The notes under the pieces were generated by a model. The model had not been told where the DNA came from. It did no database searches and worked only from the letters and a program-made list of their open reading frames with translations. Below are positions 11,558 to 39,134 of a stretch of 64,000 nucleotides of DNA, piece by piece. The DNA lies in contig NZ_JAUCEN010000002.1 of NCBI RefSeq assembly GCF_030348945.1, positions 4,712,001 to 4,776,000 on the forward strand, in the 5' to 3' direction. The translations under genes were made by a program, and so were the position numbers. Origin of the DNA: Peribacillus sp. ACCC06369. GTDB lineage: Bacteria > Bacillota > Bacilli > Bacillales > DSM-1321. The first letter of the stretch is position 1; each line of letters opens with the position of its first letter.

Positions 11558-11815
11558 ACAAAAACATACCCTCTCATTATTTATATTACCAATACTGGTC
11601 CTTTCCCTATATCATAATCTTTTAACTCTATGCAGCAAATGTTATTATCTTCAAGCAATTACAATTTTCATTGCTCTGTCTTTCATTACATTAAAAAAAC
11701 CTCTTCTTACAATTTAGCATTTTTTTTTAATTATTTTCACTAATCAATCATTTTTTTATTTTTGTAAAGATTGACTGGTCACTTGCTATCTTCAGCTAAA
11801 TAAAAAAAACACCCT
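11558..11815. other. Intergenic AT-rich stretch upstream of the repeat element
   Basis: This stretch holds no ORF or recognisable structure, only poly-T-rich sequence. It ends in the 14-nt AAAAAAAACACCCT (11802-11815) that is repeated at 12075 on the other side of the repeat element. Confidence 0.5.
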
Positions 11816-12074
11816 GACTGTAGACAAATTGAAGAAATCGGGTTGCCTGCAGTTTTTTCCTTTATAAATTCCAGTTGATTGGAACGGAAGGTACGAGACT
11901 CCTGCGGGAAAAGCGTGTCAAGGGAGACCCCACAGGCGCAAAAAGCGCCGAGGAGGCTCCCGGACCGCCCGCGGAAAGCGAGTGCCTGGAGAGTAAATCA
12001 GCGTTCGAATTTTACAAACCCTCAAAAAATATTCCAGCTGTTTTCAGAAATCCGCTCCCTTTTGTCACAAACTG
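11816..12074 (+). repeat. MITE-like dispersed repeat, copy 1, inside the bioB terminator
   Basis: The element begins with a hairpin plus T-run (GACTGTAGACAAA ... TTGCCTGCAGTTTTTT). It continues with a GC-rich block at 11871-12003 that is nearly identical to 39001-39134 (about five differences in 134 bases). It ends with GAAATCCGCTCCCT and TTTGTCACAAACTG, whose reverse complement resembles the left end. It is flanked by the perfect 14-nt direct repeat AAAAAAAACACCCT (11802 and 12075), the right copy being the left arm of the bioB terminator. No protein is plausible; the short ORFs across it are artefacts. Confidence 0.8.
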
Positions 12075-12102
12075 AAAAAAAACACCCTAAGGGTGTTTTT
12101 TT
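12075..12102 (-). terminator. Terminator of bioB
   Basis: AACACCC / GGGTGTT with a 3-nt loop, flanked by A8 on the left and T7 on the right, so it could work in both directions. It follows bioB by about 50 bp. Its left arm is duplicated at 11802 across the repeat element. Confidence 0.85.
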
Positions 12103-12151
12103 CAAATCCATATAGTTTCTTCAAAAAATGAAAGTTTTATAACCTTCTTTA

Positions 12152-13144
12152 TCAAAGAGCACATTCTTCAATTTCAAATCCCAGGTCTTCGATGATTCCC
12201 CAATCTGCCGTGGGTTCTTGACCAGCTGTCGTTAAATAATCGCCGACGAAGATGGAATTGGCTGCATAAAGTGCCATGGGCTGCATGGAACGGAGATTGA
12301 CCTCACGACCGCCGGCCAGACGGATTTCTTTACTCGGATTAACGAATCTCATCATTGAAATCAATTTCAGGCATTTATTGGGGGTCAACTCGGAAGTACC
12401 CTCAAGCGGTGTTCCGTCAATTGCATTGAGAAAATTACAAGGAATGGAATCTGCATCAAGGCTGCGTAATGATAGAGCGATTTCCACCGCTTCCGCCTCA
12501 GATTCCCCCATACCGAAAATGGCACCTGAACATGGAGACATTCCGGCATCTTTAACAGTTTCGACTGTATCTACCCGGTCCTCATATGTATGTGTCGATG
12601 TAATATTGCTGTAGTTTTCCTGTGATGTATTCAAGTTGTGATTGTATCGATGAACGCCTGCTTCCGCTAGTTTGCCGGCATGTTCCTCATTCAGGAAACC
12701 TAAACAGCAGCAGATTTTAAGATCCGTCGTTTCGCGGATTTCTTTTACCGCTTCAATGACATGATCAATTTCCCTGCTAGTCGGCCGACGGCCAGAAGCA
12801 ACAATGCAATATGTACCCGCTTTACGACGAATGGATTCTTGCGCTCCCTCGACAATCTTTTCTTTAGTCAGCCAGGCATATTTATCGATTGGGGCTTCCG
12901 AAACGATCGACTGCGAGCAGTAGCCACAATCTTCGGGGCATAATCCTGATTTCGTATTGATGATCATATTCAATTTAACCTTCTTCCCATAATGATGCTT
13001 GCGTATGAGATAGGCTGCATTCAAAATTTCCAAAACATCGCCGTCCGGAGCTTGCACGATGGATAATGCTTCTTCCTTCGTCACCTTATATCCTTTAATT
13101 ACGTTCTCAGCTAACATCTTCCAATCCCTTACTAATGTATCCAA
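12152..13144 (-). CDS. bioB: Biotin synthase
   Basis: The 330-residue radical-SAM enzyme inserts sulfur into dethiobiotin. The cluster motif CPEDCGYC (CxxxCxxC) lies near residue 70, and the family blocks GTYCIVASGRRP, YNHNLNTS and the C-terminal ANSIFVGDYLTTAGQE are intact. The start is a TTG at 13144, seven bases after GAGGG; the next in-frame ATG (MLAENV) would remove the first nine residues. It is divergent from bioYDA across a 620-bp spacer, with a BirA-type operator at 13535. Confidence 0.95.
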   Translation of the reverse strand: MDTLVRDWKMLAENVIKGYKVTKEEALSIVQAPDGDVLEILNAAYLIRKHHYGKKVKLNMIINTKSGLCPEDCGYCSQSIVSEAPIDKYAWLTKEKIVEGAQESIRRKAGTYCIVASGRRPTSREIDHVIEAVKEIRETTDLKICCCLGFLNEEHAGKLAEAGVHRYNHNLNTSQENYSNITSTHTYEDRVDTVETVKDAGMSPCSGAIFGMGESEAEAVEIALSLRSLDADSIPCNFLNAIDGTPLEGTSELTPNKCLKLISMMRFVNPSKEIRLAGGREVNLRSMQPMALYAANSIFVGDYLTTAGQEPTADWGIIEDLGFEIEECAL

Positions 13145-13534
13145 ATCTTATCCCTCTTTTCTTTACAATCTTATAAATTCCTTCTCATGAAACTGACTCG
13201 ATTAATTACCTGACCCTTGGAACGGATTGAATAATTTTTTGCACTCGCTAAATCACATCTGTTGTTCCTGATGTGTTGCCATTAAAGTGAGATGAATCGC
13301 TGGTGCATGGATTCCGTGGCTTATGTACTTCCTAGGAAAGCAGCTTGGCTCGTTCCGGTTTTCAGCAGAATGGCCCCATTTCGGTATCTATCTTTCCCTT
13401 CAAACCAAAATGTTCGGAAGTTCCCCGCCGGTCGAACGTGCAACACCAACCATAATGAGCACCGAAAGATCAACAATGCCTGGAAACATGCCAATAAGTG
13501 ATCTAAATAGTTCTCCCAAAAATAGAACTTTTAA
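13145..13534. other. bioB upstream region with a possible gene remnant
   Basis: About 390 bp without an intact gene. On the minus strand around 13400-13530 one frame reads like a membrane-protein piece (LFRSLIGMFPGIVDLSVLIM) and then breaks into another frame with stops. This looks like the eroded remains of a gene, but no family can be named. Confidence 0.3.
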
Positions 13535-13566
13535 TTTGTTAACCTAAAATATTTTAAGTTAACATA
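13535..13566. promoter_or_regulatory. BirA operator facing bioB
   Basis: Two GTTAAC half-sites at 13538 and 13558 are separated by 14 nt, within TTTGTTAAC and GTTAACATA. This is the architecture of Gram-positive BirA operators (TTGTTAAC-N14-16-GTTAACAA). The biotin protein ligase BirA with biotinyl-AMP would repress from here. Confidence 0.8.
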
Positions 13567-13663
13567 TCGATAGAATAATAACATACAAACAAAATATTAT
13601 TCAATGGTCTTTTTTCAATATTTTACTAGTCTGTCCATTAAAACCTGTGAACGTATGGTTTTT

Positions 13664-13697
13664 ATATGTTAACTAAATAATAAATTAGTTGACATAT
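13664..13697. promoter_or_regulatory. BirA operator facing bioYDA
   Basis: TATATGTTAAC and GTTGACATATA form a near-perfect palindrome with a 14-nt spacer, the same layout as the box at 13535. It lies about 70 bp upstream of the bioY start. Confidence 0.8.
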
Positions 13698-13765
13698 AAA
13701 ATGGGAATCAGGCAAACTAATAGTGAGCATTTCGCCTATCATTTCTAAAAAAGGAGGTGAAAACC

Positions 13766-14350
13766 TTGAAAGCAAGGACGATTTCTTATGTGGCCCTTTT
13801 TACCGCGTTAACCGCAATTGGCGCCTTTATTAAAATACCTATCCCTTACATACCATTCACACTTCAAATTCTGGCAGTCTATTTGGCAGGCGCATTATTG
13901 GGTCCCCGTCTTGGATTGCTCAGTCAGCTATGCTACGTCTTGATCGGACTTATCGGGGTGCCCGTGTTTGCTGAAGGCGGGGGATTCGGCTATATATTCA
14001 AACCCACTTTCGGCTATTTGCTCGGATATATACTGGGAGCCTATGTAAATGGATGGCTGATCAACCGGTTTTCCCTCACCACGATTCGTTCCATATTCTT
14101 TGCTAATGCCGCCTCTTTACTGACTGTTTACTTCTTCGGCTGCATCTGGCTGTATGGTGCGATGAAGTGGATTGTGGAAACGCCGCTTTCAATCAACCAA
14201 ACGATTCTTTACGGCTTCTTATTACCTGTACCCGGTGATCTACTGCTGTGCATTCTATGTGCTGTCATCATTCAACAAGTACGTCCGCGCATTGCAAGAT
14301 ATATAAACTTAAAGGAGCTGAATCATCCATGGGCCAAGCCTACTTTATAA
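13766..14350 (+). CDS. bioY: Biotin transporter substrate-binding subunit
   Basis: The 194-residue membrane protein is the S-component that binds biotin for an energy-coupling-factor (ECF) transporter. It has six hydrophobic segments and the BioY blocks IKIPIPYIPFTLQ and the GGGFGYIFKPTFGYLLGY stretch. The TTG at 13766 lies eight bases after GGAGG and is the better start; the GTG at 13757 overlaps that site. It ends 22 bases inside bioD. Pairing uptake with synthesis genes under BirA is common in Firmicutes. Confidence 0.92.
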   Translation: MKARTISYVALFTALTAIGAFIKIPIPYIPFTLQILAVYLAGALLGPRLGLLSQLCYVLIGLIGVPVFAEGGGFGYIFKPTFGYLLGYILGAYVNGWLINRFSLTTIRSIFFANAASLLTVYFFGCIWLYGAMKWIVETPLSINQTILYGFLLPVPGDLLLCILCAVIIQQVRPRIARYINLKELNHPWAKPTL

Positions 14351-15036
14351 CCGGAACTGGCACGGATATTGGAAAGACCATCGTCACGAGCGCACTCTAT
14401 CTGTCTCTTCAAACATTGGGAAAAAGCGTCACGATATTCAAACCATTTCAAACTGGAATCAATGAGGAAAACAATACATACCCGGACATATCTTGGTTTG
14501 AGCAGGAACTCGGTGTAAAGGAATCAGGGTTTTACACACTGGAACCTGAAACCTCCCCACATTTGGCGATTAAATTGACCGGAAAGCAAATTGATGAGAA
14601 GAAAGTCGTGGAAAGGGTTCATGAACTTGAGGAAATGTATGACATCGTATTAGTCGAGGGTGCTGGCGGATTGGCTGTCCCGCTCATTGAACGATCCGTT
14701 GATTTCTATATGACGACGGATTTCATAAGAGATTGCGGCATGCCTGTCGTATTCGTATCTACAAGTGGTTTAGGGGCGATTCATAATGTCGTGACGACGC
14801 ATTCGTATGCACAAATCCATGATATATGCGTGAAAACCATTTTGTATAACCACTACCGGTCAGAGGATCGGATTCATAAAGACAATATCGAAACCATTGA
14901 AAAGCTGACAGGGCTGAATGGCCTCGCCTGCATCCCAACACTGGCGGATGTTAGAAAAGACTTGAGGATCTGCATCCTTGATTTACTTGGTGATCAAGAT
15001 TATACCCAACAACTGAAAGAGGTGTTCCAAGCATGA
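14329..15036 (+). CDS. bioD: Dethiobiotin synthetase
   Basis: The 235-residue ATP-dependent carboxylase forms dethiobiotin from diaminopelargonate and CO2. The P-loop TGTGTDIGKT lies at residues 8-17, KPFQTGI near residue 40 and VEGAGGLAVPL near residue 112. The ATG at 14329 places the P-loop as in other BioD proteins and has AAGGAG upstream; the longer frame starting at 14248 only adds bioY-overlapping residues. It overlaps bioY by 22 bases and bioA by four. Confidence 0.94.
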   Translation: MGQAYFITGTGTDIGKTIVTSALYLSLQTLGKSVTIFKPFQTGINEENNTYPDISWFEQELGVKESGFYTLEPETSPHLAIKLTGKQIDEKKVVERVHELEEMYDIVLVEGAGGLAVPLIERSVDFYMTTDFIRDCGMPVVFVSTSGLGAIHNVVTTHSYAQIHDICVKTILYNHYRSEDRIHKDNIETIEKLTGLNGLACIPTLADVRKDLRICILDLLGDQDYTQQLKEVFQA

Positions 15037-16415
15037 ACAGTCAGGATTTAGAGCAATGGGATAAGGAATATGTATGGCATCCGTTCACACAAATGAAAAC
15101 GTATCGGGAAAGTAAACCGCTGATCATCGAGCGCGGGGAAGGCAGCTACTTGATTGATGTGGATGGCAAACGCTATTTGGACGGCTATGCTTCATTATGG
15201 GTGAATGTGCACGGGCATAACGAACCGGAATTAAATGGCGCCCTTATTGAACAAGTGAATAAAGTCGCGCACTCCACGCTGCTGGGATCTGCAAATGTAC
15301 CATCGATCTTACTGGCAAAAAAACTTGCAGAGATCACTCCTGGTCATTTATCGAAAGTCTTCTACTCTGACACTGGATCTGCTGCTGTGGAAATCGCCCT
15401 TAAAGTCGCTTATCAATATTGGCAGAATATCGATCCCGTCAAGTATCGGAATAAAAACAAATTCATCTCCCTTGACGAAGCATACCATGGCGATACTGTC
15501 GGTGCCGTGAGTGTTGGCGGAATGGATCTATTCCATAGAATCTTTAAGCCACTCTTATTTCAACGGATTTCCGCCCCTTCACCATATGCCTATCACATGA
15601 CTGAGTATGGAGATCAAGAAGCAGTGAAAAACCATTGCTTGAAGGAGCTGGAGAAGTTACTGCAAGAACAATCAGAGGAAATTGCAGGATTGATCATCGA
15701 ACCGCTTGTGCAGGGCGCGGCAGGCATCATAACCCATCCGGCAGGCTTTTTGAAAGAAGTCGAACAATTATGCAGAAAATACAACATCCTCTTAATTTGT
15801 GATGAGGTGGCTGTTGGATTCGGTCGAACCGGTACAATGTTTGCCTGCGAACAGGAAGATGTCGTTCCGGATATCATGTGTATGGGCAAAGGGATCACTG
15901 GGGGATATATGCCACTCGCAGCAACCATCATGAATGAGCAGATCTTTCAATCCTTCTTGGGAGAACAGGAAGAACATAAAACCTTCTATCACGGCCACAC
16001 CTATACAGGAAATCAGCTAGCCTGTGCACTGGCCCTGAAGAATATCGAGCTAATGGAAAGCCGCAATCTCATTAAAGACATCCAGAAAAAATCAAAATAC
16101 CTATCCGAAAAACTGCAAGCACTATACGAGCTTCCGATAGTCGGCGATATCCGCCAGCGCGGCTTCATGATTGGAGTGGAGATCGTTAAAGACCGCCAAA
16201 CAAAAGAAACGTTCACCCTCCAAGAGAATGTCGTTTACGGAATCATCCATACAGCACGGGAAAATGGCCTGATCATCCGGGAACTTGGTCCAGTCATCAC
16301 GATGATGCCGATCCTTTCCATGTCAGAAAAGGAACTCGATTTCATGGTCGAAACCGTCTACCGTGCCATTCAGGAAGTCTCCATTCATAAAGGATTGATC
16401 CCAGCAGCAAACTGA
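15033..16415 (+). CDS. bioA: Adenosylmethionine-8-amino-7-oxononanoate aminotransferase
   Basis: The 460-residue PLP enzyme converts KAPA to diaminopelargonate. The N-terminal WHPFTQM, the YSDTGSAAVEIALK block, IICDEV-type ICDEVAVGFGRTG near residue 255 and the PLP lysine in CMGKGITGGYMPLA near residue 287 are all present. It overlaps bioD in an ATGA arrangement. No bioF or bioW is present here, so KAPA must be made by genes elsewhere or imported. A terminator follows directly. Confidence 0.95.
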   Translation: MNSQDLEQWDKEYVWHPFTQMKTYRESKPLIIERGEGSYLIDVDGKRYLDGYASLWVNVHGHNEPELNGALIEQVNKVAHSTLLGSANVPSILLAKKLAEITPGHLSKVFYSDTGSAAVEIALKVAYQYWQNIDPVKYRNKNKFISLDEAYHGDTVGAVSVGGMDLFHRIFKPLLFQRISAPSPYAYHMTEYGDQEAVKNHCLKELEKLLQEQSEEIAGLIIEPLVQGAAGIITHPAGFLKEVEQLCRKYNILLICDEVAVGFGRTGTMFACEQEDVVPDIMCMGKGITGGYMPLAATIMNEQIFQSFLGEQEEHKTFYHGHTYTGNQLACALALKNIELMESRNLIKDIQKKSKYLSEKLQALYELPIVGDIRQRGFMIGVEIVKDRQTKETFTLQENVVYGIIHTARENGLIIRELGPVITMMPILSMSEKELDFMVETVYRAIQEVSIHKGLIPAAN

Positions 16416-16436
16416 TTCAAAAAGATGTAGAATTAA

Positions 16437-16468
16437 AAAGGGCACCCTCAATGGGATGCCCTTTTTTT
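16437..16468 (+). terminator. Terminator after bioA
   Basis: AAGGGCACCC / GGGATGCCCTT stem with a T7 tail. Confidence 0.85.
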
Positions 16469-16492
16469 CGCTTGAATTTTGGATGAAGTCAC

Positions 16493-16774
16493 CTATTCAA
16501 ACAAAGGGATTTCCGGCGGTATCCCGGCTTCAGGCAAGAAATAAATGAAAATGGTGAAACAAATGATAAGCAATGAAAAGATGATTGCAATAAACGAAAT
16601 GCCCAAATGAAATTTCTTACCTGCTAAATATAAGCTGATCACCAGACTTGCAAACCCAATGATCAAATAAATGCTGGCTCCAACATAGGAATTCAACTTT
16701 GGAGTAATCCCCGAGATGAAAAGCAGCACGAAAGTCATTTGCATGGATATGCATATTCCAAGTAAACGTTTCAT
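16493..16774 (-). CDS. Hypothetical small membrane protein
   Basis: The 93-residue protein has three membrane segments (about residues 8-22, 30-48 and 56-78) and a short acidic tail. ATG at 16774 lies behind AGGAGGTAAAA; the frame upstream of it is not needed. It lies between the bioA terminator and a divergent small gene. No family is recognised. Confidence 0.55.
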   Translation of the reverse strand: MKRLLGICISMQMTFVLLFISGITPKLNSYVGASIYLIIGFASLVISLYLAGKKFHLGISFIAIIFSLLIICFTIFIYFLPEAGIPPEIPLFE

Positions 16775-16936
16775 TTTTACCTCCTGTCTTTTGAAAAATC
16801 GAGTGCGATATAAATATAACATTCATCCCTATCCGCTTCTTCATTACGCACCATTAATGGACTAATTTTAATAATGTTGATGTAAATGATTGGATATTTA
16901 TTGTAAACTGGATAAGCAAAGGAGTGGATTTGCAGT

Positions 16937-17140
16937 ATGGCGTTAACAAAGAAAAGATTTTTCATAAGTTCTATAGTGGGTATCATACTCATGTTTCTTG
17001 CTAACTCTGGTCTGCAATACTTCAGTGGCCAACCGATAAAGTGGTCAGGGAATTTAGGATATGCATTCTATTTCGTAGCATTTATTTTACTTTTTATTTG
17101 GCTATTTGGAGATTTTGATAAGAAAAAGGCCAATCACTAA
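16937..17140 (+). CDS. Hypothetical small membrane protein
   Basis: The 67-residue protein has two membrane segments (about residues 8-25 and 40-58) and a lysine-rich C-terminus (FGDFDKKKANH). AAAGGAG lies 12 bases before the ATG. It is followed by a degenerate repeat hairpin that may act as its terminator. No family is recognised. Confidence 0.5.
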   Translation: MALTKKRFFISSIVGIILMFLANSGLQYFSGQPIKWSGNLGYAFYFVAFILLFIWLFGDFDKKKANH

Positions 17141-17147
17141 TGTAAGT

Positions 17148-17206
17148 GAACTTTGTTTGTACACAAACTCGATAATAATTGATTTTGCCTATAGTTTTTT
17201 TGATGA
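17148..17206 (+). repeat. Degenerate copy of the repeat-element end hairpin
   Basis: GTACACAAACTCG ... TTTTGCCTATAGTTTTTTT resembles the left end of the elements at 11816, 24704 and 38718 (CTGTAGACAAA ... TTTGCCTACAGTTTTTTT) with several changes. The body of the element is absent. It may now serve only as a terminator. Confidence 0.5.
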
Positions 17207-17248
17207 AATTCGAATTTCCACTCTAGGTAATTTTAAGGAGGTTACAAA

Positions 17249-17521
17249 ATGATGTTGGGATTTCCCCTCCTGGTTGCTTGTGTCCCTGGGATGTTAGTAA
17301 TACTTTTGGCGTGGTGGTTTAGGAAATTACATTTATCTTTATTTGCAAGGCTTTTACCAGGCGTATTAACCGTTATAGCGTCAATTATTTTGTTTTACAT
17401 TGGTTTTGTGAACATCAGAGGGTTTGAAGGAGCTGGATATGGAATACTGGCTTTCTTTTTACTTCCCTTTGCAATTGTGGCTTCAATAATTGCGAGTAAA
17501 AACAAAGGTGTGCAAAGCTAG
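17249..17521 (+). CDS. YesK-like small membrane protein
   Basis: The 90-residue protein has three membrane segments. The block PGVLTVIASIILFYIGF followed by GFEGAGYGILAFFL resembles the YesK family of B. subtilis. AAGGAGG lies seven bases before the ATG. The role is unknown. The family call is from memory and moderate. Confidence 0.6.
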   Translation: MMLGFPLLVACVPGMLVILLAWWFRKLHLSLFARLLPGVLTVIASIILFYIGFVNIRGFEGAGYGILAFFLLPFAIVASIIASKNKGVQS

Positions 17522-17690
17522 TCCATTTAGTTCGGATAATCTATGAAAACAGGAATATATACAAGCACTAAAACGATTAAAACCAATAAAAAAACCATTG
17601 GTGAAATGACAAATAGCCGAATGCGTTGGGCGTTTGACCCCTCCACCCGTATTATTAAAAACAAAAAAGGAAAGGGTTCTTACAACCGAA

Positions 17691-17727
17691 AAAAAGAGCA
17701 ATCCTATAAAGGATGCTCTTTTTTTCA
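17691..17727. terminator. Bidirectional terminator between yesK-like gene and dtpT
   Basis: AAAAAGAGCAATCC / GGATGCTCTTTTTTT, one bulged base, with A and T runs on either side; it lies between convergent genes. Confidence 0.8.
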
Positions 17728-17760
17728 TATTAGCTTATTTCTTTTAATGCTTGCTAAGTG

Positions 17761-23958: not shown

Positions 23959-24684
23959 ATGACGGAAAACCAAATCATCATCGGGATACCCGGAAAGTGG
24001 AAGGACCGGACAGAATTGATTCAAACGGTAGCCTCCCAAAGCGAAGGGTATCTGTTAGCCGGGAATATTTTTCATAACAAGGATAAGAACATAACTTTTC
24101 AGGCGGAGATCCAGGATTATGAACCCACTTTAACAGAGACCTTTTCCTACGCCAGTAAAGGCGCCTTTCCAGAGAGTTTATTAGCGGAAATCAATGACCA
24201 TACCTTTACCGTTTATATAATTGCTGATATATCCAATGTTGGAAATGTTTCAGATTTGATCGATGCCGGTGCAGCAATCCTTAGGGCAGGCGGAATGGCA
24301 GTGAAAATAGAAACAGCTGGCATTGCCCATTCAAAGGAAGATTGGCAACAACTTCATCATAGCCCCGATATTCTCTCGGTATATGCTCATTTTGTCACGA
24401 TCATCGGTGAAGAGGATTATTATTGTTCTTTCGGAATGAAAGCTTTTGGTCTTCCGGATGCCGTGACACTTAACACAATGAGTCCGAAAGAGGCGGCTGC
24501 TCTACTTAACACATTCAATTATTACCATGTAGGTGAACAGCCTCTCTTTAAGAATGGCGAAACCTTTAGCATACAAAAAGACGCACCTGACTTCATATTG
24601 ACGGGCCTTCAGGACTTTAGATACGAAGAAGACCATCCCTTCTATAACCCATTTGGATTGTGGAATTTAGGGACAAGTAAATAG
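23959..24684 (+). CDS. Hypothetical cytosolic protein, possibly DUF4261-like
   Basis: The 241-residue soluble protein has no signal or membrane segment. The central part (SDLIDAGAAILRAGGMAVKIE, then AHSKEDW) and the C-terminal tail (HPFYNPFGLWNLG) recall DUF4261 proteins, but this comes from memory and is weak. GGAAAGGAGAG precedes the ATG. Its original terminator appears to be the site into which the repeat at 24704 is inserted. No function can be given. Confidence 0.5.
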   Translation: MTENQIIIGIPGKWKDRTELIQTVASQSEGYLLAGNIFHNKDKNITFQAEIQDYEPTLTETFSYASKGAFPESLLAEINDHTFTVYIIADISNVGNVSDLIDAGAAILRAGGMAVKIETAGIAHSKEDWQQLHHSPDILSVYAHFVTIIGEEDYYCSFGMKAFGLPDAVTLNTMSPKEAAALLNTFNYYHVGEQPLFKNGETFSIQKDAPDFILTGLQDFRYEEDHPFYNPFGLWNLGTSK

Positions 24685-24703
24685 TGGGGCAATTCGCTCC
24701 TCC

Positions 24704-24973
24704 CAAACTGTAGACAAATTCGAATAAAGCGAGTTTGCCTACAGTTTTTTTATTGATTTCAGAAATCTGCTCCCTTTCCGCCGACTGTCTGCCAAGCTTC
24801 CTCGCCGCAAGCATCTAGCAGGGTCTCGGCTAGCCAGTTTTTCGGCAGGAGTGTCGCAAATTTCTTCTATCCAATAAGGATTACAATAAAAAAACTTTAA
24901 GGATAATCTAGTCTTGTTTTAAAATCTTGGTTCGGGATGAGACCATATCTCCCCACTTTTACCGACAAACTCT
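24704..24973 (+). repeat. MITE-like dispersed repeat, copy 2, in a terminator
   Basis: Left end: hairpin ACTGTAG-ACAAATTCG ... CGAGTTTG-CCTACAGT followed by T7. The body (TTTCAGAAATCTGCTCCCTTT, GGGTCTCGGCTAGCCAG, TTCGGCAGGAGTGTCGCAAA, ATCCAATAAGGATTA) matches 38782-38915 closely. It contains no ORF. It is flanked by direct repeats: AATTCGCTCCTCC is exact at 24691 and 24981, and extends to 20 positions with three mismatches. The right copy completes a hairpin GAGGAG-TAATTCG-CTCCTC followed by a T-rich tract, i.e. a plus-strand terminator. Confidence 0.8.
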
Positions 24974-25009
24974 GAGGAGTAATTCGCTCCTCCATTTTTA
25001 TTTTTTCAA
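24974..25009 (+). terminator. Terminator split by the repeat element
   Basis: GAGGAG / CTCCTC with loop TAATTCG and a T-rich tail (ATTTTTATTTTTT). Without the element it would end the 23959 gene. Confidence 0.55.
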
Positions 25010-32128: not shown

Positions 32129-32456
32129 ATAATCCTAACATTGGATACGCTTTTATATACTCTTTATTATTTATTTGAAGAACTAACTCTTTATAATTTT
32201 TATCCTCAAATTGTATTTTAGATTCGAAGATTTTTGTTCCCTTTTCTAAAACATTAGATTCTCCATCCGCATTAGGAGTGCTATTGCTACTAATCTTTCG
32301 AATAACTTCTCCTACTTCATTCCCTATATCTTGAACTTCAACAGGTTCATCAGTAATTCTGTAAGATTGCCCTTCCCAAACAATTGAAGGTGGTACATCT
32401 TCGAATAATCCCAATTTATCACTGCTAACAAAACCAACAACTAATAGTATTGCCAC
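32127..32456 (-). CDS. Hypothetical secreted or membrane-anchored protein
   Basis: At least 109 residues from GTG 32456. The upstream frame stays open for ten more codons and reads FKKSSFFLV before the GTG, which completes a normal signal peptide. GAGGTG lies five bases before an in-frame ATT at 32486, so translation may start at this rare codon, or an original ATG was mutated. The mature part is polar (SIVWEGQSYRITDEPVE onwards) with no known motif. It follows a broken secreted-protein gene in an AT-rich patch. Confidence 0.5.
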   Translation of the reverse strand: MAILLVVGFVSSDKLGLFEDVPPSIVWEGQSYRITDEPVEVQDIGNEVGEVIRKISSNSTPNADGESNVLEKGTKIFESKIQFEDKNYKELVLQINNKEYIKAYPMLGL

Positions 32457-32505
32457 TAAAAAAAATGAAGATTTTTTGAAAATAATTTCACCTCAGCCCT
32501 TTATA

Positions 32506-33085
32506 CTAATATAAAATTTTTATATATGTTTTTGTTGTATGATAGTACGTTACATAAGTTGTGCTTATTAGTTTTCCAGCGCCTGTATATGATTTTACTT
32601 GATATCTGGTAGCAATTAAATCTCCATAGATGGCAGGTCTACTCCATTTTTTTGGATTCGCTTTAATTGAGTACCCGGAACCTTTGGGACTATATGAAAC
32701 TGAAACACTTCCATATGTCCCTCCTAAAGCTACAGAAATCGAGGAACTTGAATTAGAAAAATTATAATAACTTTTATTGTAATTTTTTCCAGAAAAAGCT
32801 GGATGCCAACGTAAAAACACTTTACTCTTTTCTGTCCAGCTTGAAACTTTTGTATGATCCTTCCATCCTATACTAGACCGAGACGATAGTTTACCGTTAG
32901 TTGGTTGCATTAACTCTCTATACTCAACTTTAGGTTCTTCGGTGAATAATATTGGCGATCAATATTATTATAATCAAAAGTTCCAAATAAATCCTCGGTC
33001 GAATAATCTAATGCTTTCTCCCCTTCATTGGAATAACCGTTAAGCATATTAAAAAACCAACTAAAACTACTAAAATTTTTCTCAT
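32506..33085 (-). pseudogene. Broken gene for a secreted protein
   Basis: ATG 33085, five bases after GAGGG, opens a signal-peptide-like sequence (RKILVVLVGFLICLTVIPM). The frame stops about 25 codons in, but the next frame continues with EKALDYSTEDLFGTFDY, and after another shift near 32955 a third frame reads EEPKVEYRELMQPTNGKL and runs to 32506. The C-terminal 134 residues (rich in Ser, Tyr and Lys, e.g. SVSYSPKGSGYSIK) look like an exported domain. The first shift sits at GGGG. I do not recognise the family; the intact gene would encode about 190 residues. Confidence 0.5.
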
Positions 33086-33176
33086 ATAATCCCTCCAAAT
33101 CAAAAACCCAAAACACGCTACGTGGTTTTTTTATAATTTAATTAAATCATCTGAATCGCATCATGGCGTTTCATTT

Positions 33177-33797
33177 TTGAAATTCAAATTCCCAAATTTG
33201 AGACACGTATATGGCGTTTTAGCAAAGGGTTGGTTTATGTTGGAAATGGCAGGACTCTTCATAATCATGGGAATCGTTGTCGGTTTAGTTGCCGGGTTAA
33301 ATTTAACGGAAATTTGCGAAGGATTTAATGACGGATTTCGAGAAGTTTTGGTAGGTGCCATGATAGTAGGTATTGCAAGAGCTGTCGCTGTTGTTATGGA
33401 GGATGGTCAAGTAATGGACACGATCGTTCATAGTCTCGGCAATCTTGTCGGCGACTTTCCCGCTGTATTTAGCGCCCTTGGCATGTTTATTGTACAAATG
33501 TTATGTAGTCTTTTAATCCCCTCCGGCAGCGGTCAGGCTTTAGTTACCATGCCCATCATGGCTCCATTGGCCGACATCATCGGCGTTACAAGACAAACAG
33601 CCGTGTTAGCTTATCAGCTGGCAGATGGAATCGGCAATATATTATATCCAACATCTGGATATTCCATGGCCACCCTTGCCTTAGCAGGAGTCGCCTGGCA
33701 AAAATGGGTGCGCTTTTACCTACCCTTGTTTTTTATCTGGTTCCTCTTATCGGGCGCTTTCTTGGTCATCGCTCAAACAATTCACTGGAATGGTTAA
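33177..33797 (+). pseudogene. YfcC-type carboxylate/amino-acid carrier, N-terminal half missing
   Basis: The 206 codons encode only the C-terminal half of a YfcC/arginine-antiporter-like carrier (usually about 460-480 residues). Blocks include EICEGFNDGFREVLVGAMIVG, LLIPSGSGQALVTMPIMAP and LADGIGNILYPTSGYSMATL. Family similarity begins near LRHVYGVLAKGW, and the sequence upstream of 33177 is unrelated, so the 5' part was deleted. A TTG could start translation but no ribosome site is convincing. It is probably not functional. Confidence 0.75.
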
Positions 33798-33822
33798 ATG
33801 CAAATTAATGATATTACAAAAT

Positions 33823-33853
33823 ACTAAAGCAACGATTATTACGTTGCTTTAGT
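33823..33853. terminator. Terminator between the yfcC remnant and the SDR gene
   Basis: A perfect 12-bp stem ACTAAAGCAACG / CGTTGCTTTAGT with a 7-nt loop, between convergent frames; the T-tails are weak. Confidence 0.65.
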
Positions 33854-33862
33854 TGAATTACA

Positions 33863-34606
33863 TTAAATGAATCCTCCATTTACCCTAATCGTCTGACCCG
33901 TAACCCACTGCGCTTGTTCACCTACCAAAAACGAAACCACATTGGCAATGTCATCCTTTTCACCTAAACGTCCGAAGGCATTCATTTTTTTCATCCCTTC
34001 AATTTGCTGCTCCGATTTCCCTACATTAAACAACTCTGTGTTGACCGGACCTGGAGCAATTGCTTTGATCGTAATCCGTTTTGGCCCGAACTCTTTAGAC
34101 AAATGTCTTGTGAACTGTTCAACTACCCCTTTTGTACCTGCATACATGCTATACGAAGGAAACATCTGGCCTATTACAGAGGTTGATATATTGACGATCC
34201 TGCCATCGACCTCCATATATTTTAAGGCTTGTTGGCAAGCGAAGAATGTCCCCTTCACGTTCACTGCAAATTGTTTATCAAAGTCTTCTTCCGTTGCTTC
34301 GGAAAGTGGTTTATTTATCATCAGTCCGGCATTGTTCACTAAAATATCGATTTTCCCAAACGCCTGGACCGTTTCTTCGAAGAGATATTCAATATGGGAA
34401 ACTTGGCTAATATCGGCTTTGATGGCGACGGCTTCCCCGCCCTTCTCCTTAATCCTTTCCACTGCTTCATATGCCTTCTGCGCACTGCCTGAATAGTTGA
34501 TCACCACTTTTGCACCCAATTCTGCAAGCTGTTCCGCTATGGCGCGACCAATTCCCCTTGATGAACCTGTGACCACTGCAACTTTTCCATCCAACCGATT
34601 TTCCAT
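33863..34606 (-). CDS. SDR-family oxidoreductase
   Basis: The 247-residue short-chain dehydrogenase has the cofactor motif TGSSRGIGRA (residues 14-23), NNAG near residue 91, a catalytic YAGTK near residue 155 and the APGPVNTELF loop after it. The Ser of the triad lies in NISTSV. It resembles glucose or 3-oxoacyl-ACP reductase-like enzymes, but the substrate cannot be read from the sequence. It is a single gene with no informative neighbours. Confidence 0.85.
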   Translation of the reverse strand: MENRLDGKVAVVTGSSRGIGRAIAEQLAELGAKVVINYSGSAQKAYEAVERIKEKGGEAVAIKADISQVSHIEYLFEETVQAFGKIDILVNNAGLMINKPLSEATEEDFDKQFAVNVKGTFFACQQALKYMEVDGRIVNISTSVIGQMFPSYSMYAGTKGVVEQFTRHLSKEFGPKRITIKAIAPGPVNTELFNVGKSEQQIEGMKKMNAFGRLGEKDDIANVVSFLVGEQAQWVTGQTIRVNGGFI

Positions 34607-34780
34607 TCATTTCCCTTCTTTCTTTTCATGATAAGGTGGTTCCAGTTCATGAAAGAATCCCCATAGTCCAAATATTACCACCTTCCCCTCTTTATAAGGT
34701 AGTCAGCATAACTTCCCTACTCATGAATTTCACCTCTTCTGGTTATAGTAAAGAAGAAAATAACGGAGGAGGTTCATTCC

Positions 34781-34900
34781 ATGAAAAGTTCAAAGGAATT
34801 TGTCGAAAGCATTCAAGAGCAGCAGAAAAAGGAAGAAGGCAATTTTCGCCGTCAAGGTAACGGTAATCCCGCTCAGAAATTACCGAATAAAAAACATTAA
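34781..34900 (+). CDS. DUF4023-family small protein
   Basis: The 39-residue protein (KSSKEFVESIQEQQKKEEG, then RRQGNGNPAQKLPNKKH) matches the DUF4023 family, whose members keep the EFVExxxEQQxKxE core and the RRQGxGNPxxKLPNKxH tail. GGAGGAGG precedes the ATG. Function unknown. The overlapping longer ORFs in this stretch are shadows. Confidence 0.85.
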   Translation: MKSSKEFVESIQEQQKKEEGNFRRQGNGNPAQKLPNKKH

Positions 34901-34914
34901 TGAAGACCGCAATT

Positions 34915-34956
34915 CAAAAAATCCCCGCCTTATTTCAAGGCAGGGATTTTTTCACC
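34915..34956. terminator. Bidirectional terminator after the DUF4023 gene
   Basis: AAAAAATCCCCGCCTT / AAGGCAGGGATTTTTT, one mismatch, between convergent genes. Confidence 0.8.
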
Positions 34957-35647
34957 CCGATGTACTTTTTTTCTTCTTCATCACTTCGATTTCTTTTGAA
35001 AATGTGTCTTCTATCTCTTTTTTATTTCCATATAAAAAGAGGTTATCCCCTAATTTAATTTTATACTCAGATAACTCTTTCCTGATTTTCACTTCTCCGC
35101 TTTCAATAAATAAAATATTGATGTCCGCTCCATGCGATATGACATCAAACGCTTTGACATCTATGAATTCAGAGTCCTCATAAATATCAATCTCCATGAC
35201 CACGTCATCATCTTCTAAAAATAGGACCTCCTCTATCGGGTGCTCCCATAATTCATAATGATTATACATTTCACTTTTCAACTTATTCGATATTCTATTA
35301 TTCAGGAATGGCGTCTTCACAAAAATGGTTAAGACCACCAATACACCAATAATGATGCTTAACTCCATCAAGCGTAGGTCATCTGTAAGCAATGTACTGA
35401 TCGATGAAATAATGACAGCAAGTGAGAAAGCACCAAATAATATTAAAAACATGCTTATTTTCCTGCGAACGGGATGATCAATAATGGATTTTGACTCATC
35501 AGTTGTAAAACCAGTACCTGTCAGCATGGAGATAACCTGAAATCTGGCTACTGTGCTTTTTAATCCAGTCAATTTCAGCAAGGTAACCGATATTTCAATA
35601 ACAAGAACAATGATTATAAAGTAAAGTAACATAAACAGTAAATTCAT
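34952..35647 (-). CDS. Membrane protein with C-terminal TrkA-C (RCK_C) domain
   Basis: The 231-residue protein has three membrane segments (about residues 3-25, 63-85 and 92-108). Between the first two it carries MLTGTGFTTDESKSIIDHPVRRK, a TGTGFTT motif as found in K+ channel/transporter pores. The C-terminal third (VKAFDVISHGADINILFIES, KIKLGDNLFLYG) resembles a TrkA-C ligand-binding domain. It may regulate or form part of an ion transport system; no partner gene is adjacent. ATG at 35647 is placed ten bases after GAGGA. Confidence 0.65.
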   Translation of the reverse strand: MNLLFMLLYFIIIVLVIEISVTLLKLTGLKSTVARFQVISMLTGTGFTTDESKSIIDHPVRRKISMFLILFGAFSLAVIISSISTLLTDDLRLMELSIIIGVLVVLTIFVKTPFLNNRISNKLKSEMYNHYELWEHPIEEVLFLEDDDVVMEIDIYEDSEFIDVKAFDVISHGADINILFIESGEVKIRKELSEYKIKLGDNLFLYGNKKEIEDTFSKEIEVMKKKKSTSG

Positions 35648-35765
35648 CAACACGATCACTTCCTCATTTATGGTTTACCCTAATTCCGCCAAAAGAATCG
35701 CATCCTTTTTTCTTTTCAAGCTTCTCATCAATATATTCACTTACTGCGAATAACTGATATGAAAC

Positions 35766-35812
35766 AAAAAAAACACAGTAAGATCCAAATGAGAATCCTA
35801 CTGCGTTTTTTC
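35766..35812. terminator. Bidirectional terminator before the TrkA-C gene
   Basis: CACAGTAAGATC / GAATCCTACTGCG imperfect stem flanked by A8 and T6 runs; it lies downstream of the VWA gene on the minus strand. Confidence 0.7.
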
Positions 35813-35830
35813 CCTATATACACCTAATTC

Positions 35831-37747
35831 TTAAATGGTCTTCAGCAGTAGCTTTTTTAACAGCGGTGTAAACTGCTCTGGCAATTCAGCTACACTCGGA
35901 ATCATTAGCCGTTCTTTGCCATAGATGTTTTTCATCGTCAATTCTTCACTTTCATCGACGCCTCCATCCGCTAAAAACAGGCCTATGACTTCTATGCCTT
36001 TTTTCCTGGCTTCCGATACGGCAAGATGTGTATCGACAATTCCATTTTGATCATAATCGCTTGCTGCCGGCTCACCATCGGAAAATACGAGCAAGAAACG
36101 GTTTTTTTCGCGCCTTTTTTCCAATTCCATTGTGGCCACCCTGATGCTGTATCCGTCCCGGTTGTCTTCCTCCGGTTCAAGCTGCATGATTTTCGCTCCT
36201 GAGTTCAGATAAAAAGAATCGGAATGCGACTGGATCACATGGAAGTAATTCGGCTGATATCCTTCTCTCACTTCATTCGCATCTTCCCAAAATCCCACGA
36301 TCGAATGGGGAATCCTTAATTTTTTCAGCACTTCATGAAACAGGACGACCCCTCGTTTCGTTTCATCCATTTTGTTATGCATGGAGGCCGAGCAATCGAT
36401 AAGCAATGTGAATACGGCATCCAATTCATTTGAATCCTGGTTCTTTTTATAAAAGACCCTTGGATTTTCTTCAAGTACAAGCGGCAGTAATTTCTTCGAT
36501 AAACGACCAAAAACCAAATCTTTTCTTGGTGCATTCTTTTTATTTTCCAGTGTCTTTTCAATTGTACTGGAAAGTTTCCTCTTAAACGGTTCAATATCCG
36601 CAACAAACTCACGGTAGCGTTTCTCCTCCGAAAGTGTTGGTATTTTTGCTTCCTTGATTACTTGGACGACGTCTTTATTTTCTTCACCAAATGGATGTTC
36701 ACCACTTTTGCCCATATTGGTTTGTTTCTTCTCCAGCGTTTCCTGCTGATTGTATTCCTTTTGTTTACTTTCCCCTGATGAACCCTGGATCGAAGCCAGC
36801 GCTTGGTCGGCATCTTCCGCTTCTCGGGCACCGCCGCCCATCAGACTTGTTTTCGTTCCCTGCTCCAATTCAAATTGAAGGAAAGTCGAATTACTCTCGC
36901 CGTTCTTATTCTCCCGATGCCAAGTTGAGAATTTCTCATCGATGAACTCACTTTTTTCTTCGTCTACCTCTTCTGTATCATCGTTAACCAGTTCATCATT
37001 TCTAGTCAGTTCATCAAATAAGGTATTTGCCTTATACTTTTCCACATTTGCAATGGGGAAGATGAAATATTCATTGATCGTATCCTCGTATCCATCGTTC
37101 ACACGAAAAACGATTTGCTCGCAAATCCTCGTGATATCACTGGTTTTAGTGGCTTCAAAGACAGAATGGATGAACGGTTTGATTTTCTCCAGCTCTTCCA
37201 GCTGCCGTACATTGGCTCTGGGAAAAATCGGATCCGGCCGGTCGGATTGAAGCAGTAAATAGATGAGGCAATATAATTCATCCAGCGCAAAACTTCTTGT
37301 GACATTCGTTGCTAATTGGCTTTCGAAATATTGTTTAAGGTAAGCTCCCCTTACCGAAAACCATTTTTTCGTGCCTGGCCTTTCTTTCTTCACCAATTCT
37401 TCCAATCGCAAATCTTCCATTATAGCGAATAATTGGGCTGCAAACTTCGGAAGCGAACTTTCCCCGATGATGTCCTGGTACTCCTTCATGCTCTGGATTG
37501 TTGAATGATGCAGCGTACCTATCGTCCTAAGGAGCACGTCCGTTTTCAGTCCCGCTTCCTTCACTTCCTTATTGCCATTTTCCCAAAAATGGCTGGCTGT
37601 GACCTTATTCTCGATCAGATCAATGAAGGAACCATAATTATATTCGAATTCCAGCTCAGAAATGCCGGATAAGACAGTCGAGAGATCCTGAAGCTGTAAA
37701 AAAAGGGCCGTATCAATTATTGAATCATTAAACCGGATATACTTCAT
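35831..37747 (-). CDS. yojO: VWA-domain protein, NorD/CbbO-like (B. subtilis YojO type)
   Basis: The 638-residue protein has a helical N-terminal part, an acidic low-complexity middle (about 255-330) and a C-terminal von Willebrand A domain. Its MIDAS motif is LLIDCSASMHNKMD near residue 445, with FSDGEPAASDYDQNG near residue 552. NorD/CbbO-type proteins work with a MoxR ATPase to activate metalloenzymes, for example nitric oxide reductase or Rubisco. No such target enzyme lies nearby. It starts 15 bp after the ATPase gene, so the two form one operon. Confidence 0.88.
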   Translation of the reverse strand: MKYIRFNDSIIDTALFLQLQDLSTVLSGISELEFEYNYGSFIDLIENKVTASHFWENGNKEVKEAGLKTDVLLRTIGTLHHSTIQSMKEYQDIIGESSLPKFAAQLFAIMEDLRLEELVKKERPGTKKWFSVRGAYLKQYFESQLATNVTRSFALDELYCLIYLLLQSDRPDPIFPRANVRQLEELEKIKPFIHSVFEATKTSDITRICEQIVFRVNDGYEDTINEYFIFPIANVEKYKANTLFDELTRNDELVNDDTEEVDEEKSEFIDEKFSTWHRENKNGESNSTFLQFELEQGTKTSLMGGGAREAEDADQALASIQGSSGESKQKEYNQQETLEKKQTNMGKSGEHPFGEENKDVVQVIKEAKIPTLSEEKRYREFVADIEPFKRKLSSTIEKTLENKKNAPRKDLVFGRLSKKLLPLVLEENPRVFYKKNQDSNELDAVFTLLIDCSASMHNKMDETKRGVVLFHEVLKKLRIPHSIVGFWEDANEVREGYQPNYFHVIQSHSDSFYLNSGAKIMQLEPEEDNRDGYSIRVATMELEKRREKNRFLLVFSDGEPAASDYDQNGIVDTHLAVSEARKKGIEVIGLFLADGGVDESEELTMKNIYGKERLMIPSVAELPEQFTPLLKKLLLKTI

Positions 37748-37762
37748 GAGGCATTCTCCTAG

Positions 37763-38629
37763 TTAGAATAATGTGTCAGCCAAGTTCTTCACAAACTCAC
37801 GCTCCCGCTCCTCGTCCAACTTATCCACAATGGAACGAAGAATCGCCCGTTTCGGCGGGATCAATACACTCAGATCGCAAGCATCAAGCAAAGCCCTGAT
37901 CGATGCCGCATCTTCAGCGACCTTCCCTTGATTCACGGCATTTATCAAATCACTCGACAGTTTAACGAACAATTCAATACTTCTTGGGTCCTTCAACTTT
38001 GTATTGGTTTCTATCAATTGCTTTAACTGCTCCCCTTCGATATAGGGAACTTCGATTACGACAAACCTATTTTTCAGCGCTTCATTCAGCGGCACTGTAC
38101 CGACATACCCTTCATTGATTGCAGCAATCACATTAAAGCCATCTTTTGCAGTGATGACTTCATTCGTGAACGGATTCGTTATCGTCCTTCTGTAATCAAG
38201 CACCCCATTGATTAGCGGCAGTGTTTCCGGTTTTGCCATATTGATTTCATCTATATATAGGAAATGACCGTGATTCATTGAATTGGTCACAGGTCCGGGT
38301 ACGAATTCTATCACCTGTTTTTCCTCTTTATAAGCCAACGTCTTGAAGCCCAATAAACTTTCGGCATCCAAGTCGACTGAGCAGTTGACACTGAACATTG
38401 GCTGGTTGAATAAATTCGATAATGTCTCGGCAAACTTTGTCTTTCCTGCCCCTGTCGGACCCTTCAAAAGGATATTCTTCCCCATGCTTAAGGCAGTGAT
38501 GGCATCTACCATCAACTCCATCTCGGGAGGCAGATATCCGCCGCTCCTGATCAATTCCTCGTATTGAGCAGGATTTTTTTTATTAGCTTCTAATATATTT
38601 GCTATTTCTATTGGTAGTCGATTGATCAT
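37763..38629 (-). CDS. yojN: MoxR-family AAA+ ATPase (YojN/NorQ type)
   Basis: The 288-residue ATPase has Walker [18 protein letters not shown] near residue 55, Walker [17 protein letters not shown] near residue 120 and sensor 1 AAINEGYVG near residue 165. ATG at 38629 lies ten bases after GGGGTG; the longer frame adds residues without a ribosome site. With the VWA partner it forms a chaperone pair of the NorQ/NorD type. Target unknown. Confidence 0.9.
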
Positions 38630-38696
38630 TGTGTTCCTACACCCCTTTCTGAACATTTTAAGGCTCTTTCCCATTAAAAACAAACACTAAGAAAAA

Positions 38697-38717
38697 GAGC
38701 TGTCATCAAGACAGCTC
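38697..38717 (-). terminator. Terminator for brnQ-direction transcripts
   Basis: A perfect 8-bp stem GAGCTGTC / GACAGCTC with a 5-nt loop and T5CTT on the minus strand. It abuts the left end of the repeat element at 38718. Confidence 0.8.
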
Positions 38718-38975
38718 CCAGACTGTGACAAACTAGAAGAAAAGTGTGTTTGCCTGCAGTTTTTTATTTAAAAGACGTTCCAGTTGATTTCAGAAATCCG
38801 CTCCCTTTCCGCAGACTGTCTGCCAAGCCACATCAAAGCAAGCGCCTGTGGGGTCTCGGCAAGCCAGTTATTCGGCAGGAGTGTCGCAAATTTCTTCAAT
38901 CCAATAAGGATTATAAAATAATAAAAAAATCAAAGTGTAACCTTGTCTTAATCAAGGTTCGGGATAAAACCAGAC
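38718..38975 (+). repeat. MITE-like dispersed repeat, copy 3 (same type as 24704)
   Basis: Left end CAGACTGTGACAAAC ... TTTGCCTGCAGTTTTTT, then the body GAAATCCGCTCCCTTTCCG, GGGGTCTCGGCAAGCCAG, TTCGGCAGGAGTGTCGCAAA and ATCCAATAAGGATTA, closely matching 24752-24890. The stretch GCGCCTGTGGGGTCTC is the exact reverse complement of part of the GC-rich block at 39001-39134, so the two sequence types are related in opposite orientation. It starts at the base after a terminator stem. Confidence 0.8.
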
Positions 38976-39134
38976 TACAGTTTTTTCTTAAAAAAACAAT
39001 CCAGTTGATTGGAACGGAAGGTACGAGACTCCTGCGGGAAAAGCGCGTCCAAGGGAGACCCCACAGGCGCAAAGAGCGCCGAGGAGGCTCCCGGACCGCC
39101 CGCGGAAAGCGAGTGCCTGGAGAGGAAATCAACG
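38976..39134 (+). repeat. GC-rich repeat block, same type as 11871-12003
   Basis: After a partial end motif (CTACAGTTTTTT) the block from 39001 starts CCAGTTGATTGGAACGGAAG and ends GAGTGCCTGGAGAGGAAATC. It differs from the copy at 11871 at about five positions. Together with copy 3 it makes a composite of about 420 bp between yojN and brnQ. It is strongly structured (GGCGC...GCGCC, CGGGAGCC...). Short ORFs across it are not genes. Confidence 0.8.

Follow-up and report, generated by a model that had tools for sequence, protein, structure and literature searches.

Probable MITE relics of an IS1182-family insertion sequence that duplicates its target hairpins in a Peribacillus genome

Here we analyzed a 64,000-nucleotide stretch of the Peribacillus sp. 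ACCC06369 genome (the window), in which three short repeats lie beside hairpins at gene ends (Table 1). The hairpin at copy 1 is the terminator that follows bioB, a minus-strand gene (12152-13144; NCBIfam TIGR00433, 413.5 bits). The letters and coordinates of the three repeats are as given by the first-pass annotation, and an end hairpin followed by a T-run is present in all three. The annotation also called them three related elements; they have common ends, but are mosaics of two modules, A and B, and module B looks by eye like an inverted, diverged module A. The repeats had been described as free of ORFs, and a mechanical listing places a 136-aa ORF across copy 3.

Table 1 Features of the three repeats, in positions of the window
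Feature	Positions	Strand	Sequence or basis
Copy 1, left remnant of duplicated bioB terminator hairpin (one arm, remainder gone)	11802-11815		AAAAAAAACACCCT, exact repeat of 12075-12088
Copy 1, transposon end with inward hairpin and T-run	11814-11858		CTGACTGTAGACAAA..., 1 mismatch to IS end, contig position 4723814
Copy 1, module A (~130-nt structured module, candidate RNA)	11874-12002	+	sequence similarity and covariation alignment
Copy 1, other transposon end	12059-12074		TTTTGTCACAAACTG, resembles IS end TTTTGTCTACAAACTG
Copy 1, intact bioB terminator hairpin (right copy of target duplication)	12075-12102		holds second AAAAAAAACACCCT at 12075-12088
Copy 2, left copy of duplicated hairpin, diverged	24684-24703		complete hairpin here in relatives L335, L336, L337
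Copy 2, transposon end with inward hairpin and T-run	24704-24751		CAAACTGTAGACAAA, end-sequence match at contig position 4736704
Copy 2, module B (resembles inverted, diverged module A)	24753-24872	-	similarity and by eye
Copy 2, other transposon end	24957-24974		ACCGACAAACTCTG, sequence inspection
Copy 2, right hairpin copy, then T-rich stretch up to 25006	24975-24993		single-hairpin empty site in relative L338
Copy 3, terminator-like hairpin (left copy of duplication)	38697-38717		both hairpin copies in relatives L340, L342
Copy 3, transposon end with inward hairpin and T-run	38719-38765		CAGACTGTGACAAAC, sequence inspection
Copy 3, module B	38783-38902	-	similarity
Copy 3, internal end-hairpin arm and T-run, sign of composite element	38973-38986		GACTACAGTTTTTT, sequence inspection
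Copy 3, module A; right transposon end and right hairpin copy missing	39004-39134	+	L339 has same junction; L340 has complete element

At copy 1, the 14-nt repeat noticed earlier is indeed exact on both sides, with the right one inside the bioB terminator. The left repeat is a single arm, unlike the full-length left hairpins at other element sites, and the right hairpin also adjoins elements in three relatives (L281, L282, and L284). The exact repeat reported at copy 2 (AATTCGCTCCTCC, at 24691 and 24981) is present, but is part of a longer one, a hairpin of approximately 19 nt with three mismatches between its copies (24685-24703 and 24975-24993). Copy 3 does start one base past the stem on its left. 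Because the left side of copy 1 is one arm and copy 3 has no right hairpin, the window alone would not prove duplication. The relatives complete the picture: site 2 is empty in L338, with one hairpin, and in L340 and L342, site 3 holds a complete element between two hairpins. Copies 1 and 3 of the window have each lost part of the duplication.

The same genome contains at least 16 copies of a 1,744-bp element, 15 of them identical, that encodes a 455-aa IS1182 transposase; each of our genome searches scored 40 candidates, which makes the copy numbers minimum values. The transposase scores 460 bits against NCBIfam NF033551 (cut-off 270), and its DDE domains match Pfam PF13751 and PF01609, both above cut-off. 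None of the solved structures matched it at E up to 0.01. The terminal inverted repeats of the 16 autonomous copies are CAGTTTGTAGACAAAA and TTTGTCTACAGTCTG, which gives the transposase with matching ends that the first-pass annotation had proposed to look for. Promoter-like and terminator-like sites within the IS number 7 (4.4 expected) and 3 (2.3 expected), neither count being above chance. Transposition is evident from unlinked, near-identical copies and from empty sites in relatives. The window elements are short, lack a transposase, and have ends in common with the autonomous element, at one end only for copy 3. Their sequence marks all three repeats as old and decayed MITEs, non-autonomous derivatives of IS1182-family insertion sequences.

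The autonomous copies preserve the target duplication. In 14 of the 16, the element is flanked by an exact direct repeat of 20-30 bp that comprises the entire stem-loop; the flanking hairpins of L061 differ by one base, and L073 has two different hairpins on its sides. Across several genera, we found 23 exact duplications of 20-34 bp, all but one of which (22/23) are dyad-centered. Of the 49 non-IS copies in the genome, 11 are flanked by a second hairpin that has diverged (up to 5 mismatches in 22), versus 0 of 196 control stretches. Among the matches listed for other genomes, 54 foreign copies have 400 bases or more on the element side, and 9 of these show an exact repeat of at least 20 nt; the others may have lost the repeat, have their end beyond the stretch, or never have had one. 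Three of seven plasmid copies have a whole-hairpin duplication (NZ_CP133765.1, 24 bp; NZ_CP085391.1, 35 bp; NZ_CP082921.1, 30 bp), two have different hairpins on each side, one shows a recognizable end at just one side, and the last has no ends by the search pattern used.

Empty sites were then read from alignments with relatives. Nineteen of 28 relative sites have a single hairpin with both flanks aligned and the element absent, and the other nine are diverged, partly deleted, or occupied by another element. The 28 were selected from 45 matches, leaving aside repetitive matches to the L062 flank and short secondary ones, and cover 11 of the 14 queried sites.

Element ends also lie at hairpins more often than chance would predict. 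Using a hairpin score of our own, devised for this analysis, we found a hairpin beside the end of all 16 autonomous copies and 32 of 49 other copies in the genome, versus 23 of 1,960 random positions. The 49 are what remains of the 67 end matches once the 16 IS copies and the first two window copies are set aside, and 13 of them score below 8. Within the window, the left side of copy 3 scores 13 and passes; copies 1 and 2 are decayed and fail, at 6 each. In other genomes, where ends were located by end sequence alone, 65 of the 80 foreign ends listed adjoin a hairpin, compared with 21 of 1,562 random positions. These 80 are the ones listed among at least 120 stretches, with redundancy kept (L120 and L178 have nearly the same hairpin). 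The first-pass annotation proposed a mobile element that picks out terminator hairpins and duplicates its target site. The flanking repeats, the empty sites, this enrichment, and a transposase with matching ends support that idea, with two amendments: the whole hairpin is duplicated, not one arm, and the hairpin seems to be the signal.

The transposase, or an RNA polymerase that it follows, could instead read terminators as such, through the T-run, the stalled polymerase, or the RNA hairpin. Among the matches listed, 46 of the 65 foreign-end hairpins have 6 or more T among the 9 bases at the 3' foot, versus 75 of 1,600 random 9-mers. In 15 of the 16 recent autonomous copies, the 12 bases surrounding the 3' foot are at least 58% T (42% in L073). 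This T-run is absent from the remaining 19 of those 65 listed hairpins, most clearly from L121, L125, L166, and L169, which have none whatever, and the position of the duplication is set on the dyad rather than by the T-run. Because some targets lack a T-run, the target signal is likely the hairpin itself, judging by these sequences, and recognition of terminators as such appears unlikely. Spread of a host-side repeat family, such as REP-like or terminator-associated hairpins, by recombination or slippage without transposition would suit the many diverged, mosaic, non-coding copies. It is hard to reconcile with 15 identical 1,744-bp copies that encode a transposase, carry end repeats, and are flanked by exact, mutually distinct target duplications, and we regard it as highly improbable. 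Class C group II introns, the comparison made by the first-pass annotation, insert at terminators, as the present element does, but move by an RNA-based route. They are not known to have a transposase or to produce a target duplication. An intron or its remnant is the least credible origin of all, and was ruled out: the coding copy encodes a DDE transposase, and Rfam group II models had no match at gathering level in the window, nor any near copy 1 with a cut-off of E = 10.

IS1630 of Mycoplasma fermentans, an IS30-family element, was reportedly described by Calcutt et al. in 1999. In strain M64, four of seven complete copies are reported to have duplications of 16, 23, 25, and 26 bp. Both elements thus duplicate inverted repeats of variable length; the transposases differ in family, and no IS30 model was among the NCBIfam matches of the 455-aa protein. 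Within the IS1182 family itself, IS1272/TnSha1 of staphylococci inserts at hairpins, terminators among them, and shows little preference for primary sequence (PMC4923244, PMC5678879). There, the target hairpin is replaced or partly deleted without target duplication, whereas the present element duplicates it whole. Replacement of this kind, in which our element would remove a hairpin and the flanking hairpins would have pre-existed, has the shared transposase family and the copies flanked by two different hairpins in its favor. The latter would also follow from recombination between copies, and the exact whole-hairpin repeats at 14 of 16 copies together with single hairpins at empty sites make it very improbable; the empty sites rule out both IS1272-type replacement and pre-existing tandem terminators for these copies, which have neither lost the hairpin nor lack a target duplication.

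Targeting of hairpins by DDE insertion sequences is therefore already known, by replacement for IS1272 and by duplication for IS1630. The first-pass annotation is amended by these precedents, and also by the derivation of the non-coding repeats from an IS1182-family IS. In Wan et al., the Fig. 13 legend draws hairpin duplication as a possible branch of the model. PMC4923244 and PMC5678879 quote Siguier et al. for the statement that some IS1182-family members target palindromic sequences, which, according to PMC5678879, came without detailed data; here, the length and dyad centering of the duplication are measured. The pneumococcal repeats RUP, BOX, and SPRITE are likewise short, often bunched, and nested in one another, one kind being terminator-like, and the accessible text of PMC10969869 describes no whole-hairpin target duplication for them. 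In the open literature, as far as it was accessible, we found no IS1182-family element described as duplicating whole hairpins; ISfinder and subscription sources were outside this scope, and an earlier report is possible.

We consider it highly probable that the window repeats are MITE relics of an IS1182-family IS whose insertion duplicates a hairpin, putatively via a cruciform, and probably keeps termination. The data provide the transposase family, the common ends, the variable-length, dyad-centered duplication of whole hairpins, and the single-hairpin empty sites. During insertion, the target inverted repeat would be extruded as a cruciform. At its four-way junction, the transposase would link each 3' end of the element to the 5' foot of one of the two hairpins. 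The strand-transfer distance would then be constant in space and, in sequence, equal to the hairpin length, and repair would leave one full hairpin on either side. Loss of the transposase gene would produce non-coding copies that could be mobilized in trans. An inward hairpin is predicted at each element end, with the T-run at the module-A end, and the earlier suggestion that this end hairpin restores termination fits the sequence. Given a doubled target hairpin and an inward hairpin at each element end, a disrupted gene end probably keeps its terminator, which would explain why the insertion is tolerated.

Module A, present in copies 1 and 3, shows strong covariation. In alignment A2, 16 of 32 pairs are changed on both sides, compared with a mean of 5.9 in shuffles (0/500 reach 16), although A2 contains 55 of 71 sequences, the 16 left out by eye being mainly shortened, mosaic, or near-duplicate, a choice that may favor the structure; slid controls gave 3-7 pairs. 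Some of the 71, including some in A2, come from foreign loci other than the 80 listed. G-U versus A-C cells at predicted pairs number 110:8, an indirect pointer to the plus strand, and 44:3 at nine nested pairs chosen by a filter neutral between both. The module was found in 101 of 150 sampled Bacillales genomes, with up to five candidates scored per genome; first-look counts of up to 335 represent unconfirmed copies. Plasmid records contain 15 matches, and phage records none at E up to 1e-5. Rfam gave no gathering-level match to module A within the window, and, up to E = 10, the matches near copy 1 were all far below gathering scores. Three 14- or 15-letter pieces of the module were absent from the paper texts searched. 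Its context in other genomes was read from 20 stretches of five genomes, 17 with the anchor used. The longest upstream ORF is on the same strand as module A in 20 of 29 cases. A link to downstream terminators (6/29 downstream, 2/29 upstream, 15/500 random windows) was suggestive only and was dropped.

Module A is thus a candidate structured RNA, by its sequence, that may be borne by more than one mobile-element family. More tentatively, and with somewhat more doubt than confidence, it could be an undescribed ncRNA, antisense to the transposase and a passenger of more than one such family, present in most sampled Bacillales genomes and probably multicopy, with the captured host terminator ending its transcript in the IS1182-type element. 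If true, that element would duplicate a target hairpin and end its own RNA at one of the two copies. In either case, a widespread structured module without an Rfam match is brought to light.

At recent insertions, the duplication made by a DDE transposase tracks hairpin length and is dyad-centered, which bears on how transposases read DNA structure. One family would have two outcomes: a cruciform attacked at its 5' feet would lead to duplication, and one attacked at its 3' feet to replacement, as for IS1272. This choice should be testable with two related enzymes. For the Bacillales, the whole-hairpin duplication would account for a class of intergenic repeats in their genomes, and suggests how gene ends, which probably keep their stop signals after insertion, may tolerate them.

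The three non-coding repeats that the first-pass annotation had placed beside terminators, with short direct repeats belonging to those terminators, were verified in sequence and coordinates (see table), and the gene adjoining copy 1 is bioB. Mosaic in structure, these repeats draw on two modules (A and B) and on end sequences; module B looks like an inverted and diverged module A. A module A search of the own genome gave at least 45 matches, 17 of them equal in score, and inspection of longer stretches identified 16 of the 17 as full 1,744-bp elements, 15 of which are identical. Their ends are CAGTTTGTAGACAAAA and TTTGTCTACAGTCTG, and they encode a 455-aa IS1182-family transposase (460 bits against a cut-off of 270) with DDE domains. 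The genome-wide copy search found a transposase with matching ends, as had been suggested; the ends of the non-coding repeats are similar to those of this IS. With up to one mismatch, CAGACTGTAGACAAA occurs 67 times in the own genome; the reversed pattern has 0 occurrences. Window copies 1 and 2 belong to these matches; copy 3, whose end (CAGACTGTGACAAAC) is one base short, does not. One IS copy, L062, has a repetitive flank of TATAACTGGATTTTCGTCGATATATTCC units (contig C2 near 4209200-4213200) with many matches in relatives.

Window positions of the repeats, their modules and other repetitive features
Feature	Position	Strand	Remark
Copy 1	11802-12102		contains module A; span includes flanking hairpin sequence
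Module A in copy 1	11874-12002	+	
Copy 2	24684-25006		contains module B; span includes both flanking hairpins and a T-rich stretch
Copy 3	38697-39134		contains modules A and B; span includes the left flanking hairpin
Module A in copy 3	39004-39134	+	
Tandem array	45329-45673		21-bp step, 11 overlapping 135-nt copies, inside both ORFs below
ORF	45308-45685	+	
ORF	45337-45714	-	
Two neighbouring direct repeats	60248-60745		249 bp each, 96% alike, at 3' end of ORF below
ORF	60236-63400	-	1,054 aa

Target-site duplication by an element choosing terminator hairpins, as first proposed, is real and well supported, and its scope is wider than the author of that proposal could see. At 14 of the 16 IS copies, an exact direct repeat of 20-30 bp comprises a complete stem-loop. 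The exceptions are L061, with a one-base difference between its two hairpins, and L073, whose left and right hairpins are unlike, an arrangement expected from recombination between two copies. Of the 12 bases surrounding the 3' foot of the right-hand hairpin, at least 58% are T at 15 of the 16 and 42% at L073. Duplications were measured in 23 cases, 14 from the own genome and nine from other genomes, the latter being those of the 80 listed foreign copies whose exact repeat reached 20 nt (54 of the 80 had at least 400 element-side bases). Their length is 20-34 bp, and the repeat centre coincides with the palindrome centre in 22; the sole off-centre case, L128, deviates by half a base, perhaps through a repeat call that took in one extra base. 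In many cases pairing runs on past the duplication (0 to 11 extra pairs), so where the duplication stops is not set just by where pairing ends.

To avoid selection by context, GTDB genomes were scanned with only the element's final 18 bases. Enrichment at hairpins was clear: a hairpin starts within 3 bases of the end in 65 of the 80 copies listed, versus 21 of 1,562 positions drawn at random from those stretches, and a stricter setting of our own hairpin score gave 52 of the 80 versus 8 random positions. The 65 include copies from Peribacillus, Lysinibacillus, Sporosarcina, Cytobacillus, Mesobacillus, Metabacillus, Lederbergia, Ureibacillus, and Macrococcus; both Niallia copies and the single Psychrobacillus copy among the 80 failed the score. 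In the own genome, a hairpin lies beside the end at 16/16 IS copies and 32/49 others versus 23/1,960 random positions, with the left sides of window copies 1 and 2 falling below the score. A diverged second hairpin was found at 11 of the 49 old copies versus 0 of 196 controls. Of seven plasmid copies, exact whole-hairpin repeats flank three (NZ_CP133765.1, NZ_CP085391.1, NZ_CP082921.1); L399 and L404 lie between unlike hairpins, only one end of L403 is recognisable, and a search for the ends of L401 found none.

Fourteen flanks were sought in three close relatives, where 28 sites covering 11 of the 14 were aligned. Empty orthologous sites were indeed present: by our reading, 19 of the 28 lack the element and align on both flanks around one hairpin, whose letters differ in some cases. 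At three sites (L065, L067, L076), the relative G006 apparently has a different element on the corresponding hairpin or close to it, with transposase remnants in L318 and L324. The remaining six are diverged, partly deleted, or aligned on only one side. For window site 2, L338 is empty with one hairpin and L334-L337 are occupied; the full left hairpin is present in L335, L336, and L337 and the right hairpin in L334, while that of L335 is lost and the right side of L336 and L337 lies outside the stretch compared. For site 3, L340 and L342 have the complete element flanked left and right by the whole hairpin, L341 has the right hairpin copy, and the right-end junction of L339 is that of the window copy. 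No true empty site was found for site 1 among 12 relatives: three have elements at the matching hairpin, six lack an element and have another terminator, and the last three have diverged too far.

At least six of the nine bases at the 3' foot are T in 46 of the 65 hairpins beside foreign ends. Because the other 19 fall below this threshold, and a T-run is missing altogether from a few (L121, L125, L166, L169), the target signal is more likely the hairpin itself than the terminator; we infer that terminators make up most targets because perfect intergenic hairpins are most often terminators. If the target were extruded as a cruciform, the 5' feet of both hairpins would meet at the four-way junction. 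Joining the element 3' ends at these feet would make the duplication equal to the hairpin at a constant spatial distance, and joining at the 3' feet instead would give replacement, as described for the IS1182-family element IS1272. The legend to Fig 13 of Wan et al. (PMC5678879) has both branches drawn, and our series appears to fit the duplication branch. A terminator scan called an inward terminator-like hairpin (15 pairs plus a T-run) at the module A end of the IS; the long hairpin seen in the sequence of the other end was not called as one. Since both target hairpin copies are kept and hairpins lie at the element ends, insertion would be expected to disturb termination little, in agreement with the over-representation of IS1182 elements between convergent genes stated in a survey (PMC9208149).

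Within the IS, module A lies upstream of the transposase gene, and its better-folding strand is opposite to that gene (z-scores of -4.74 versus -2.36). Across 55 sequences, 16 of 32 pairs have both-side changes, compared with 5.9 ± 1.2 in shuffles (0/500 reach 16) and 3-7 in slid controls. These compensatory counts are better evidence than the 96.9% of cells paired, a figure flattered by deriving the structure from the same alignment. A column-pair scan restricted to pairs able to pair in most sequences recovered the same long hairpin, whose nested pairs are nine of the top ten. The pairs of the structure, which was predicted under rules that permit G-U, hold 110 G-U versus 8 A-C cells; with a filter neutral between the two, the nine nested pairs hold 44 G-U and 3 A-C. 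All 13 pairs over the cut hold 46 and 91, nearly all of the 91 coming from three pairs incompatible with the hairpin. The G-U excess on the nested pairs favors + strand RNA from module A over a purely DNA-level structure.

Module A, which is about 130 nt long, covaries strongly and has no match in Rfam, was detected (E ≤0.001) in 101 of 150 genomes sampled across the order; by genus the count is 56 of 83. One of 29 module A loci (L349-L377) has an IS1182 transposase match; among 80 listed loci chosen by element end, module A is present in 42, a transposase match in 32, and the two together in 24. G090 has module A within another repeated element, which differs in its ends (L383, L385-L387; AGGCTCTTTTCTAAAAGATTGTTG / CAACAAAGTTT.CGAAAACAGCC). 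Flanking some copies (L355, L359, L370) are sequences resembling GGCTCTGTTAAA or TTTAACAGAGC, which may mark the ends of a further carrier. By these matches, module A is widespread in Bacillales and rides in more than one mobile-element family. IS1272 and IS1630, an IS30-family element that duplicates inverted repeats, are precedents for the principle of hairpin targeting found here, and the structured module A may be the part of the finding that is new.
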